Assembly: GCA_937766455.1 (NCBI GenBank)
Contig: CALLXD010000008.1
Coordinates: 1 to 64,000 of the forward strand
Direction: 5' to 3'
Origin: Vicinamibacterales bacterium
GTDB lineage: Bacteria; Acidobacteriota; Vicinamibacteria; Vicinamibacterales; UBA8438
Length of the DNA: 64,000 bases
Positions 21,685 to 25,645 of this stretch are shown here, one piece after another. Made by a program: the position numbers and the translations under genes. The notes under the pieces were generated by a model. It was not told the DNA's origin. It ran no database searches and saw nothing but the letters and a program-made list of their open reading frames with translations. Numbering within the stretch: position 1 is the stretch's first letter; each line of letters opens with the position of its first letter.

Positions 21685-22377
21685 TCATGTCGTGACCTCG
21701 GTCCCGAGGACAAGTTGCGTGTCATGGCGAGCCTCGAATCGCAGATTTTCTCCACGTATGAGGTCTCCATCGACCACGGCTCTCCCATCGGCCAAGACAC
21801 CTCCGCCCTTCGTCAGGTAGGCCAGGTACGCCCCTTCGACCGACACCGTGTCCCCGGCGCGAGGCTGGGCGATATCCAGTACCGTCTTGGCCGGCAGGGT
21901 GTCGGACTGGGACGCGGGTCCGCCGTAGACACGGGTCTGCGCGCCCAGGGCCGGCCGGTAGACATGGTAGCTGGCTGGCTCGTCGGGTGCCTCGGGGAGG
22001 ATCCAGAGCTGAATCATTCGGTTCTGGGCCGGGTCCGGATTGATCTCGTTGTGCGTGAACCCCTCGCCACCCGCGCGCTGCACCTGCACATCGGGTGCCG
22101 ACAACGGGTGTCCATCGCCGAGCGATCCCTCATGGGCGATCCGTCCCTCGACGACGACGGAGATCACGTCGATGTCGCGGTGAGGATGAAGACGTGTCTC
22201 ACCGTGCGGGACAAAGCGCGCATCGGCGAGATAGACGAGATTGCCGATGCCAGGCCAAGCCCCACCAGTCGGTTGTGGCCCAAACGCCCGTGGGTCGACG
22301 ACAACCCGGTGCTCTCGCAATCCGGCGAATCCCCCGAGTGGTAGGTCATCGCGATGCAGAATGTGTGTGTCTTGCAT
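21685..22377 (-). CDS. pirin-family bicupin protein
   Basis: A 230-residue cupin. HPHRDIDVISVVVEGRIAHE holds the conserved metal-binding histidines of pirins, followed by VQVQRAGGEGFTHNE, the usual second motif with its His and Glu, then IQLWILPE. Some pirins oxidise quercetin or bind transcription factors; the role here is not determined. The ATG at 22377 is chosen because the sequence upstream, though in frame, contains a strong promoter and an operator (22390-22437). GAGG precedes the ATG. It lies downstream of a MarR regulator in the same orientation and is probably its target. Confidence 0.9.
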   Translation of the reverse strand: MQDTHILHRDDLPLGGFAGLREHRVVVDPRAFGPQPTGGAWPGIGNLVYLADARFVPHGETRLHPHRDIDVISVVVEGRIAHEGSLGDGHPLSAPDVQVQRAGGEGFTHNEINPDPAQNRMIQLWILPEAPDEPASYHVYRPALGAQTRVYGGPASQSDTLPAKTVLDIAQPRAGDTVSVEGAYLAYLTKGGGVLADGRAVVDGDLIRGENLRFEARHDTQLVLGTEVTT

Positions 22378-22389
22378 TTTTATTGCCTC

Positions 22390-22437
22390 GTTAATAATTA
22401 ACGTGGTAACTATAATGCCTTCACCACCATTCGTCAA
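22390..22437 (-). promoter_or_regulatory. sigma70 promoter and palindromic operator of pirin
   Basis: Reading the minus strand, TTGACG (22437-22432), a 17-base spacer and TATAGT (22414-22409) form a near-consensus sigma70 promoter. Immediately downstream lies the perfect palindrome GTTAATAATTAAC (22390-22402) across the expected start of transcription. The AT-rich island is striking in this GC-rich DNA. The MarR-type gene just upstream is the natural candidate to bind it and repress pirin. Confidence 0.7.
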
Positions 22438-22465: not shown

Positions 22466-22891
22466 CTAGCGGATTCGGCGCAACAACGCCGTCAGCTGAG
22501 CGATGTCCGCCTTCGAGAGATCCGCCAGCGCCTCACGGTCGCTGTCAGCCATGGGACGGTCGAGCTGGCCAAGACGCGCAAGACCGGCGTCTGTGATCGC
22601 GCACATCGTCGCCCGCCGGTCGGTGTCGCACGGACACCGGGTCACCAGCTTCATACGCTCGAGGCCATCGATGAGACGCGTGATCCCGGGCGTGCGCTCG
22701 ATCAGACGGCGGCGAATCTCCATGATCGGAAGCGGTTCCCCGGCCCCACGGAGAATCCGGAGGGTGTTGAACTGCGACAACGTCAGCCCGGCTGCGCCCA
22801 CCACGGCGGCCGCACGCACGCGAATACGATCGGCCGCGCAGAGCGTTTCAACACTGGCTAGCGACGATGGAGCGTGTGGGCGTCGGGGCAT
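22466..22891 (-). CDS. MarR-family transcriptional regulator
   Basis: 141 residues with a MarR winged helix: LTLSQFNTLRILRGAGEPLP, then RTPGITRLIDGLERMKLVTR as the recognition helix and LVTRCPCDTDRRATMCAITD as the wing with the DxR motif. Two cysteines flank the wing (CPC, and C in ATMCAI), which might give redox sensing. MarR proteins typically repress a neighbouring gene and release DNA on binding a phenolic ligand or on oxidation. Its closest candidate target is the pirin gene 88 bases downstream, which has an operator-like palindrome at its start. Confidence 0.85.
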   Translation of the reverse strand: MPRRPHAPSSLASVETLCAADRIRVRAAAVVGAAGLTLSQFNTLRILRGAGEPLPIMEIRRRLIERTPGITRLIDGLERMKLVTRCPCDTDRRATMCAITDAGLARLGQLDRPMADSDREALADLSKADIAQLTALLRRIR

Positions 22892-22957: not shown

Positions 22958-22987
22958 TTGACATCCACCAACGGCATGCTTGAGGAT
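22958..22987 (+). promoter_or_regulatory. candidate promoter of the structured small RNA
   Basis: A consensus -35 hexamer TTGACA (22958-22963) is followed after 18 bases by GAGGAT (22982-22987), a poor -10 match. Transcription would begin near 22994. The -35 is perfect but the -10 is weak, so the assignment is tentative. Confidence 0.35.
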
Positions 22988-23101
22988 GAGGCGACGTGTT
23001 TCCGCGTAAGAGCGGCGGTCTTGGAGAGGCACTGGGCGGCCCTGAGACCGGGCGGGTTGGGACCCGCCACAGTGTGACGCGCCCGCGAAGGAGGTGATCC
23101 T

Positions 23102-23146
23102 GTGGACGATTTAACTAGTGGCTCTGCGGAGGTGGCGTCCTCGTAG
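23102..23146 (+). CDS. 14-residue micro-ORF with extended Shine-Dalgarno, inside the structured RNA
   Basis: GTG start at 23102, product MDDLTSGSAEVASS, TAG at 23144-23146. AAGGAGG (23088-23094) lies seven bases upstream and is part of AAGGAGGTGATCC (23088-23100), which is complementary to the canonical bacterial 16S rRNA 3' end over 13 bases. The ORF covers the left strand of the outer junction stem and the stem-loop after it, so ribosomes on it would melt the structure. It may be a leader-type peptide, a dual-function RNA product or a ribosome trap. Peptide function is unknown; translation itself is inferred from the ribosome-binding site. Confidence 0.5.
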   Translation: MDDLTSGSAEVASS

Positions 23147-23227
23147 GGACCTCCAGCGCATAGGTGGCGCCTGAGGGCTCCCCAAACGGGGTTAACCCAA
23201 CGCCACCGACGCAGAACCAGCTTGTCT

Positions 23228-23263
23228 GGCCCCGGTCCTTCCACAGGGCCGGGGCCTTTTTTT
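23228..23263 (+). terminator. rho-independent terminator of the structured RNA
   Basis: GGCCCCGG (23228-23235) pairs with CCGGGGCC (23249-23256), followed at once by seven T residues (23257-23263). The T-run is on the plus strand only, which fixes the direction of the transcript. It is the clearest terminator in the window. Confidence 0.9.
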
Positions 23264-23290: not shown

Positions 23291-25645
23291 CTAGTACCCG
23301 GTCAGTTGCGGTAGTCGCTCGTCGTCAGGTAGCGGCTGCACGCCAAGCGTATTCAGCGTCATCGAGACCTTGCGATAGCGCGACGTGATGGCGGCAATGC
23401 TCATCATTTGACGGCTGTCGTAGCTCGCAGACAGCGCGGCCCAGGTCTCATCCGAGATGATCGTGTCGCTGTACATTTCGTCGGCGGCATTGATGAGCAG
23501 CCGCTCGGTCGCGTTCCATCCCCGCGCGTCGTTGCCCTGAGCGATCCACTGCGGCTCGAGCCCATGGTCACGGGCGCGCCCGACGCTACCCACGTGCTTG
23601 GCCCATTCGTACACCGACTGCGCATTCCAACCGGTCCGCAGAATAAGCAGCTCGCGGTCATGCGGCGTCATCCCTGACCGTTCCGGATTTTGCACGTAAC
23701 TCGGATTGGCGTACCACTGGGCCTCCATCTGGGGATGCTGGCGCAGGGTGCGGCCCACACGGATTCCGTCGCCCTCGATCGGGTCGATCCGCGGCGAGGT
23801 CAGCGGCGCTTCCGCCGTCGGCACGTCGATGCGATAGGCGACGTCGGCGCTCGGGATCAGCTCGGTGGCGCCGGTATCAGGCTGCACGCCGAGCGTATTG
23901 AACAGGATGGAGGAGGACGTGGTTTCGCTCACGGTCACCACGGCGTCCGCCAGGTTGGGCAGATCATACATACGTGACAGTTCGGACCAGGTGCCATCGG
24001 TCACCGACGCATTGCGGAACATCTCGTCGGCGAGGTCAATCAACACCTGATCAAACGTCGTCAAACTGTCGCCCGCGCCTTCGGCGACCTGCCTGATTTC
24101 CGCGGCGCTTAACCCATGGTCTCCACGGTCGGCGTGCGACGACCAGAGGTAGCCGTTCTGAGCGAGCCAGGCGGTGCGCAGGATCAGAATCGCCCGGTGG
24201 CGCGGTGAGAGCGTTGAGTCGTTGCTGACATAGGTCAGTAACGGCATGAATCGATCGGCCAAGGCGGGCACGCGAATCAGCGTGCGCAGCGCATTGCCGG
24301 CGTTGCCGTCTGGTGCATACTTCTCCACCAGCGCTCGCTGCTCAGCGGACCAGTCGGTTTCGGGCAACGGGGGCACCCGCGCCTCGGTGAGCCGGTCGAC
24401 GAAAATCGCGCTCCCAGGCGGATCGACCAGGGCCGTCGCGGGCTCAATTCGCAACAACACCCCGTCGTCCTCGTCGGTCAACACATAGAGATATCCGTCG
24501 GGACCTTGCCGTACGTCGCGAATGCGCTGCTTGAGCTCGGTGAGCAGCGACTCGCGCCGAATCTCCTCACCGCGCCGGTTGAACACGATGCGCTCGATGT
24601 GCCCGGTGCGCGGCATCCGGCCTTCCATCATCGACCCGACGAACAGGTTGCCCTGCCACTCCGGAAAGTGTGGCCCGGTGTAGAACGTCAGACCTGACGG
24701 CCCGATGGATGGCCACCACAACACGTCGGCGTCCTCAAACTCCGGCCGCCATGGCGTCTCGGTCACTCGGACCCCGGAATACTCGCGGCTGTACGACGCA
24801 AGCGGCCAACCATAGTTGGCGCCCGGCTTGATGATGTTGGCCTCGTCGCCTCCCTGCGGCCCGTTCTCGGTCGCCCACAGATCGCCGGTCTCCGGGTGCC
24901 AGGCGAGCCCGAGCTGGTTCCGATGTCCCATTGAGTAGATCTCGGGAAGATAGCTGGGATCGCCGAGGAAGGGATTGTCGGACGGGGTCGTGCCGTCGTC
25001 GTTCATCCGCATCAACTTGCCGAAATGGGTGCCCGGGTCTTGTGCATAGCTACCGGTATCGGCGAACACGTACGAACCACCAACCGTCATGAACAACGTC
25101 CCGTCGGGTGCCCAGATGAGCCGCGACGCGGCGATGCCGGTGTCGACGCCCTGTGCGACGAAGATGTCGCGCACTTCGGTCAGGTTGCCGGCATCCAGGC
25201 GCCCGCGCGCGAGCGCCACGGTCACGCCCGGCTCGCCGTCGACAACGATCGGCTTGGAGTAGGTCAGATAGACAATGCGGTCGTCGGTCGGATGTACGGC
25301 GACGTCCATGAGCCCGGCCCGGTCAGACTCCGCGGCCACGACCGGCACCCCCGGAATATCGCGATCCAGCAGCTGGCCGTTGCGGACGACTCGCAGCGTG
25401 CCTTTGTCGCGTTCCGTAATCAGGATGTCGCCGTTCTCGCGGAACGCCATCCCCCAGGGATGGGACAGGCCCCCCACCACTGGTTCTACGCGAATGCGCT
25501 GCACCTCTCCGGTGTACAGCACCACGGACTCGGTCGGCGGCGGGACGGGAGGAATAAGGTCGCGTCGCTGCGCCGACACGGAACCGGCGACGAGCACGCA
25601 AGACAGGCCGAGGACGACGGCGCGAGGGCGTGGCAGGTAATTCAT
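23291..25645 (-). CDS. PQQ-type sorbosone/glucose dehydrogenase fused to two carboxymuconolactone-decarboxylase-like domains
   Basis: A 784-residue exported protein (signal peptide RAVVLGLSCVLVAGSVSAQ). Residues about 45-405 are a GSDH/sorbosone-dehydrogenase propeller: GLSHPWGMAFRENGDILITE, GLMDVAVHPT, MGHRNQLGLAWHPETGDLWA, ENGPQGGDEANIIKPGANYGWP. Residues about 450-600 and 640-780 are two helical carboxymuconolactone-decarboxylase/AhpD-like domains, each with an RHRAILILRTAWLAQNGYLW or DRELLILRTGWNAQSVYEWA motif and ending SSILFNTLGVQP or VSMTLNTLGVQP. The usual CxxC of AhpD is absent from both. The propeller would oxidise an aldose or similar in the periplasm; the helical domains may act on the lactone or acid product. 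The fusion is unusual and its reaction order is inference. Confidence 0.8.
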   Translation of the reverse strand: MNYLPRPRAVVLGLSCVLVAGSVSAQRRDLIPPVPPPTESVVLYTGEVQRIRVEPVVGGLSHPWGMAFRENGDILITERDKGTLRVVRNGQLLDRDIPGVPVVAAESDRAGLMDVAVHPTDDRIVYLTYSKPIVVDGEPGVTVALARGRLDAGNLTEVRDIFVAQGVDTGIAASRLIWAPDGTLFMTVGGSYVFADTGSYAQDPGTHFGKLMRMNDDGTTPSDNPFLGDPSYLPEIYSMGHRNQLGLAWHPETGDLWATENGPQGGDEANIIKPGANYGWPLASYSREYSGVRVTETPWRPEFEDADVLWWPSIGPSGLTFYTGPHFPEWQGNLFVGSMMEGRMPRTGHIERIVFNRRGEEIRRESLLTELKQRIRDVRQGPDGYLYVLTDEDDGVLLRIEPATALVDPPGSAIFVDRLTEARVPPLPETDWSAEQRALVEKYAPDGNAGNALRTLIRVPALADRFMPLLTYVSNDSTLSPRHRAILILRTAWLAQNGYLWSSHADRGDHGLSAAEIRQVAEGAGDSLTTFDQVLIDLADEMFRNASVTDGTWSELSRMYDLPNLADAVVTVSETTSSSILFNTLGVQPDTGATELIPSADVAYRIDVPTAEAPLTSPRIDPIEGDGIRVGRTLRQHPQMEAQWYANPSYVQNPERSGMTPHDRELLILRTGWNAQSVYEWAKHVGSVGRARDHGLEPQWIAQGNDARGWNATERLLINAADEMYSDTIISDETWAALSASYDSRQMMSIAAITSRYRKVSMTLNTLGVQPLPDDERLPQLTGY

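Follow-up and report, generated by a model that had tools for sequence, protein, structure and literature searches.

Positions 22958-23263 on the forward strand of the window, the whole 64,000-nucleotide stretch of a Vicinamibacterales genome analysed here, appear to form a stand-alone transcription unit in which a promoter, a ~270-nt structured RNA and a terminator follow one another without a partner gene. Judged from sequence comparison, this RNA is a new, dual-function-like family outside Rfam, and both the layout of the transcription unit and an unusually long complementarity to 16S rRNA are strongly supported. On balance we favour, with some reserve, a translation-gated, pseudoknotted RNA in which the act of translation would be under selection, the peptide would be largely incidental, and the translated and folded states would be mutually exclusive. 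The family is uncatalogued and spread across many lineages of Acidobacteriota, a phylum with few described RNAs, and would represent a rare case in which the openness of a reading frame is preserved inside a covarying RNA core while the encoded amino acids hardly are. It also makes testable the question of whether translation without a peptide product can be a working part of a small RNA.

Transcription unit and conserved fold

No gene is annotated at the RNA locus in the window. The predicted promoter (22958-22987, forward strand) consists of a TTGACA -35 box (22958-22963), an 18-bp spacer and a -10-like GAGGAT (22982-22987), with a predicted transcription start near 22994 that fits the position of the -35 box. 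A perfect TTGACA occurred 75-160 nt upstream of the Shine-Dalgarno sequence in 42 of 59 representative homologs, compared to 1.3% of shuffles, and the promoter is kept in the homolog alignments as well. At the other end, the predicted intrinsic terminator (23228-23263, forward strand) combines a 12-bp stem (23228-23239/23245-23256) with a T run. An initial annotation of this DNA had described it as strong, in agreement with the fold of positions 23224-23262 alone (z = -4.9) and with the terminator-like hairpin and T run found in 55/59 representatives.

The downstream neighbour, a long frame at 23291-25645, lies on the opposite strand as initially annotated. Upstream, a MarR-like frame (22466-22891) on the other strand adjoins the RNA, in tandem with a pirin/cupin-like frame (21685-22437) on the same minus strand, both named by eye only. 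Flanks are not conserved among homologs: downstream genes vary in family and strand from genus to genus, with a co-directional next gene in about half of the loci. With no constant neighbour and a next gene that can lie on either strand, the RNA is neither a leader, as the initial annotation had also concluded, nor part of one operon.

Positions 22994-23263 fold at -138.7 kcal/mol, compared to a mean of -117.5 across 200 dinucleotide shuffles (z = -4.2, none as low), so that the structured 270-base RNA first noticed in the sequence is real; the junction part alone (23120-23219) reached z = -5.1. The initial annotation had proposed looking for conservation and covariation in related genomes, and both were found, with the RNA present in 23 of 28 family genomes and double-sided changes at 17/25 pairs of the named structure. 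On alignment A4, which was used for pair counts, this structure had 88% of cells paired, and its 17 pairs with double-sided change compare to 7.9 in shuffles (0/500 as high) and to at most 6 in slid versions of the structure. Partner-permutation tests were based on 56 representatives and 20,000 permutations, and two unrelated segment pairs used as a control gave z of about 0, although the sequences are related and hence not independent, which may inflate all covariation tests.

The 5' hairpin H1 (23002-23016, forward strand, as are all elements that follow) is of the CCGC...GCGG type and conserved across the phylum. It is followed by H2 (23016-23050, CGGTCTTGG / CCTGAGACCG), which includes covarying pairs in the family alignment and carries GGGCG (23034-23038) in its loop, and by H3 (23051-23068), in which GGCGGGT and ACCCGCC form seven perfect base pairs (23051-23057/23062-23068), with 91% of cells paired and double-sided change at 6/7 pairs. 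The perfect 7-bp base of H3 had been noted initially as belonging to a hairpin inside the junction; the pairing stands, and the hairpin lies upstream of the junction. The long-range junction stem P4 (23123-23215) pairs 23123-23128 with 23210-23215 (6 bp) and, across a GA/GA internal loop, 23131-23138 with 23200-23207 (up to 8 bp). A 9-bp stem with one mismatch enclosing hairpins had been described here, and a junction stem with further hairpins within it was recovered. Nine of 14 P4 pairs displayed double-sided change, with a permutation z of -12.4 (0/20000) for the whole stem and -8.6 for its outer part. A small TCC / GGA hairpin holding the stop codon in its loop (23138-23149) gave z = -2.6 (117/20000), and strands outside the stems are nearly invariant.

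Two pseudoknots are predicted in addition. PK2 (23058-23199) connects the H3 loop UGGG (23058-23061) to CCCA (23196-23199), which immediately precedes the 3' strand of P4; 94% of its cells are paired, double-sided changes are present, including compensating changes in loci L139 and L194, and permutation over the 56 representatives yielded z = -5.5 (0/20000). Taken as a whole, the comparison strongly supports H3, P4 and PK2. PK1 (23034-23084) would pair GGGCG in the H2 loop (23034-23038) with CGCCC (23080-23084), just before the Shine-Dalgarno sequence. It had 195/205 cells paired, and two of its pairs showed four double-sided changes in total (shuffle mean 0.4, 0/2000 as high), contributed by L127 and the L140/L143/L151 group; it is a weaker claim than PK2 because its energy permutation test was not significant (1558/20000).

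Some loci depart from this architecture. L094 (G006:C7) carries ~43 nt extra between two hairpins enclosed by the junction with the remaining core intact, indicating that this loop tolerates insertions, and L154 (G468:C96) and L226 (G537:C423) keep the Shine-Dalgarno sequence and frame in the absence of a normal H3 hairpin. On the minus strand, the reverse complement of 23123-23240 scores 22 bits against the RNA's own model, a weak score that arises because the junction is palindromic and that is not evidence of an antisense RNA.

Ribosome-binding site and reading frame

An extended Shine-Dalgarno sequence, AAGGAGGTGATCC (23088-23100, forward strand), has 13 nt of complementarity to the canonical 16S rRNA 3' end. 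Pairing, whether Watson-Crick or G-U, extends over all 13 positions in 84/87 homologs, with the canonical bacterial tail GGAUCACCUCCUU as reference rather than the carriers' own; a search pattern for the 16S 3' end had no match in ten genomes, including the one-contig G216, and was perhaps too strict. Variants such as GTGGTC stay paired with the 16S tail through G-U. For comparison, 331 ordinary genes taken from these loci had longest 16S matches of at most 9 and most often 5, so that no other gene examined there reaches the ribosome-binding complementarity of the RNA. In Staphylococcus aureus, cryo-EM and toeprinting revealed that extended Shine-Dalgarno helices fix GUG starts and that A-U can be replaced by G-U (PMC13009471). 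When folded without pseudoknots, the Shine-Dalgarno sequence of the RNA was neither clearly open nor clearly closed. A helix sequestering it with a post-stop CCUCC looked attractive within the family and is not claimed here because the permutation tests were weak (822/20000 and 1603/20000).

The Shine-Dalgarno sequence precedes a small open reading frame of 14 codons, GTG...TAG (23102-23146, forward strand, MDDLTSGSAEVASS). This frame is open in 87/87 loci at 13-15 codons, i.e. in 53/53 loci of the first set and in 34/34 loci outside the training set of covariance model R2, including families not used before. Across the variable part of 72 distinct sequences (573 codons), in-frame stops numbered 0, 43 and 59 in frames 0, +1 and +2, respectively, and shuffling predicted about 34 frame-0 stops, never fewer than 16, compared to the 0 observed. 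In nine loci the frame length differs by one codon in either direction, always by a whole codon and never out of step, and TAG and TAA interchange as stops, as do GTG, TTG and ATG as starts. The start lies at the same spacing in 81/87 loci, although start codons were located by requiring them to be in frame with the GAGGTGGCG block, which means that agreement between start and frame is partly built in. These features would be hard to explain without translation, for which the evolutionary evidence is strong, and selection for an open frame is strongly supported.

The second half of the frame (codons 8-13) is also the 5' strand of P4. Between near neighbours, pN/pS was 0.75-0.83, similar to other frames and without third-position excess, an estimate based on about 46 changes and compatible with weak selection on the peptide. 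The encoded peptides are short and mostly polar. Their recurrent features include G7 and L/S8, both at or near P4, and a C-terminal EVA-S/A-S/P; the EVA near the peptide end is constant, coincides with the P4 strand, and becomes GAA in L127 and L216 with P4 pairing kept. Near-neutral pN/pS, together with an EVA that lies on the P4 strand and changes while P4 is kept, thus suggests that the open frame is selected and the peptide hardly, except possibly at G7 and L/S8; amino acids outside P4 appear barely constrained.

The initial annotation had interpreted the locus as a "conserved regulatory or dual-function RNA". A conserved, covarying, stand-alone RNA is what the comparison recovered, and the dual-function part gains a basis in the conserved frame; any regulatory role is putative. 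That annotation had missed the Shine-Dalgarno sequence and frame (23088-23146) as well as the two pseudoknots, so its own evidence did not itself establish the dual-function inference.

Distribution across Acidobacteriota

With BLASTN, the RNA was recovered from the majority of genomes in the window's family, and the other families of the order that were sampled had no match. Those close relatives that have public names are metagenome-assembled genomes under the labels Acidobacteria, Vicinamibacteria or Vicinamibacterales. A restriction to this one family, as nucleotide search alone had suggested, was not upheld: two covariance models searched within Acidobacteriota, one of the core (R1) and one refined on 39 sequences from across the phylum (R2), detected the RNA phylum-wide. 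R2 matched 23 of the 28 genomes in the window's family and 0/134 others in the order, 41 of the 396 genomes sampled across the phylum, and 8/41 and 54/149 genomes in two other classes, so that the RNA occurs in 17 families of Acidobacteriota besides the window's own. E-values of true members were mostly <1e-16, with a wide gap to noise and a few weaker cases (G228, G537, G562, and G569).

Genomes carry one copy, with the exception of G002, in which two near-identical copies with similar flanking genes lie on two contigs (C52 and C78), more likely because the assembly contains redundant strains than because the locus was duplicated. No copy was found in G003, G007, and G012, near-complete genomes of the family, so that the RNA is not essential everywhere, and this patchy distribution suggests repeated loss or transfer. 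A BLAST match in G003 falls within what reads as a metallopeptidase-like coding frame and is not the RNA. Outside the window's family, weak matches within the order (E about 0.05) were gone with the refined model, and L153 and L155-L158 were attributed to chance. L154 (G468), the sole same-class candidate outside the window's family, is a doubtful member, lacking H3 and missed by the refined model after an earlier E of 0.002. A strict genome-wide pattern scan returned Acidobacteria records alone, with a pattern too strict to test other phyla, and viral contigs had no exact match to the pattern.

Proposed mechanism and relation to known RNAs

In the simplest model, the RNA would have two exclusive states, translated and folded. 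A ribosome would load at the extended Shine-Dalgarno sequence and initiate at 23102, and its transit would open P4 and the adjacent PK2. Since P4 starts at codon 8 and PK2 closes on the far strand of P4, a ribosome initiating at 23102 would have to open both within a few codons; the exclusivity of the two states would thus follow from geometry, while its functional consequence is what we infer. Poor initiation would leave the RNA folded, and loading ribosomes would keep it opened. Possible outputs of the folded or opened state would include exposing the ACCCAACGCCACC strand, pairing with a target, binding a protein, and holding or capturing 30S subunits. A bolder version, which we regard as possible if somewhat doubtful, is that of a new ribosome-gated class, docking 30S subunits through the whole 13-nt 16S tail and using a sequence-indifferent mini-frame as a fold switch that would sense translation capacity.

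Other explanations account for part of these observations. The RNA may instead be the mRNA of a functional 14-residue microprotein, its structure just stabilising the message or controlling its translation, as selection on the frame and the recurring G7, L/S8 and C-terminal residues would allow. We consider this unlikely given the near-neutral pN/pS, the coincidence of EVA with P4, the two loci in which EVA is altered and pairing kept, and a conservation of structure far above what a short mRNA would need. A classical trans-acting small RNA pairing with target mRNAs, its frame an accessory tuning abundance or structure, would be consistent with the RNA's own promoter and terminator, its nearly invariant strands outside stems and its variable neighbours; yet the 16S-complementary stretch and the frame are the most conserved part, which is unexpected for an accessory and makes this reading rather improbable.

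A ribosome-sequestering or 30S-binding RNA, for which the 13-nt 16S pairing would be the function and the short frame and stop would let ribosomes leave, draws on a complementarity that exceeds any of the 331 genes and is kept in 84/87 homologs through G-U-compatible changes. As this alone leaves both the frame/P4 overlap and PK2 unexplained, we judge it quite improbable. Short frames beside terminators are typical of attenuators, and the share of co-directional next genes might likewise point to control of a downstream gene in cis, by a leader or attenuator, but with the window's next gene on the other strand, and downstream families and strands that vary between genera without a conserved co-transcribed gene, this is hardly credible.

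Comparison to known classes began from Rfam 15 covariance models, which on the window detected only a tRNA above the gathering cut-off and no family at the RNA locus, in line with the initial impression that no known class was recognisable. A relaxed search gave a best E of 0.068 (21.4 bits, against a cut-off of 50), its matches mostly reflecting terminator similarity, while Rfam searches on 18 homologous loci returned tRNAs only and ARAGORN identified in the window only a tRNA-Ser and no tmRNA. Literature searches, with one candidate survey of structured RNAs outside their coverage, found no description of the RNA. Like tmRNA, the RNA has pseudoknots and a very short frame whose end lies within the fold, but it lacks a tRNA-like end and has its own Shine-Dalgarno sequence and start codon. 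Separate tmRNA genes (RF00023) were identified in G001, G004, and G008, and separate 6S RNA genes (RF00013) in G008, G262, G216, G491, and G507, all of which carry the RNA, which is therefore neither tmRNA nor 6S RNA.

Acido-1 and Acido-Lenti-1 (RF01686, RF01687; PMC2864571) are likewise free-standing structured RNA candidates of Acidobacteria, but their covariance models had no match in the window or the 18 related loci. The mRNA of tisB is a structured small-toxin mRNA with pseudoknots (PMC7708055), and the RNA described here shares with it pseudoknots and a link between structure and the translation of a small frame. It differs in its peptide, which is short and mostly polar rather than the hydrophobic membrane peptide of a type I toxin mRNA.

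Closest in layout are dual-function small RNAs, of which RNAIII/hld, SgrS/SgrT and SR1/SR1P are known examples. Pos19 is a dual-function bacterial small RNA as well (PMC5036791). The RNA appears to resemble these in being a short transcript bounded by a promoter and terminator of its own and in combining a small reading frame with a conserved RNA part. It would differ from them in a frame that doubles as a strand of the central stem, a peptide that is barely constrained, and a Shine-Dalgarno sequence of 13 nt.
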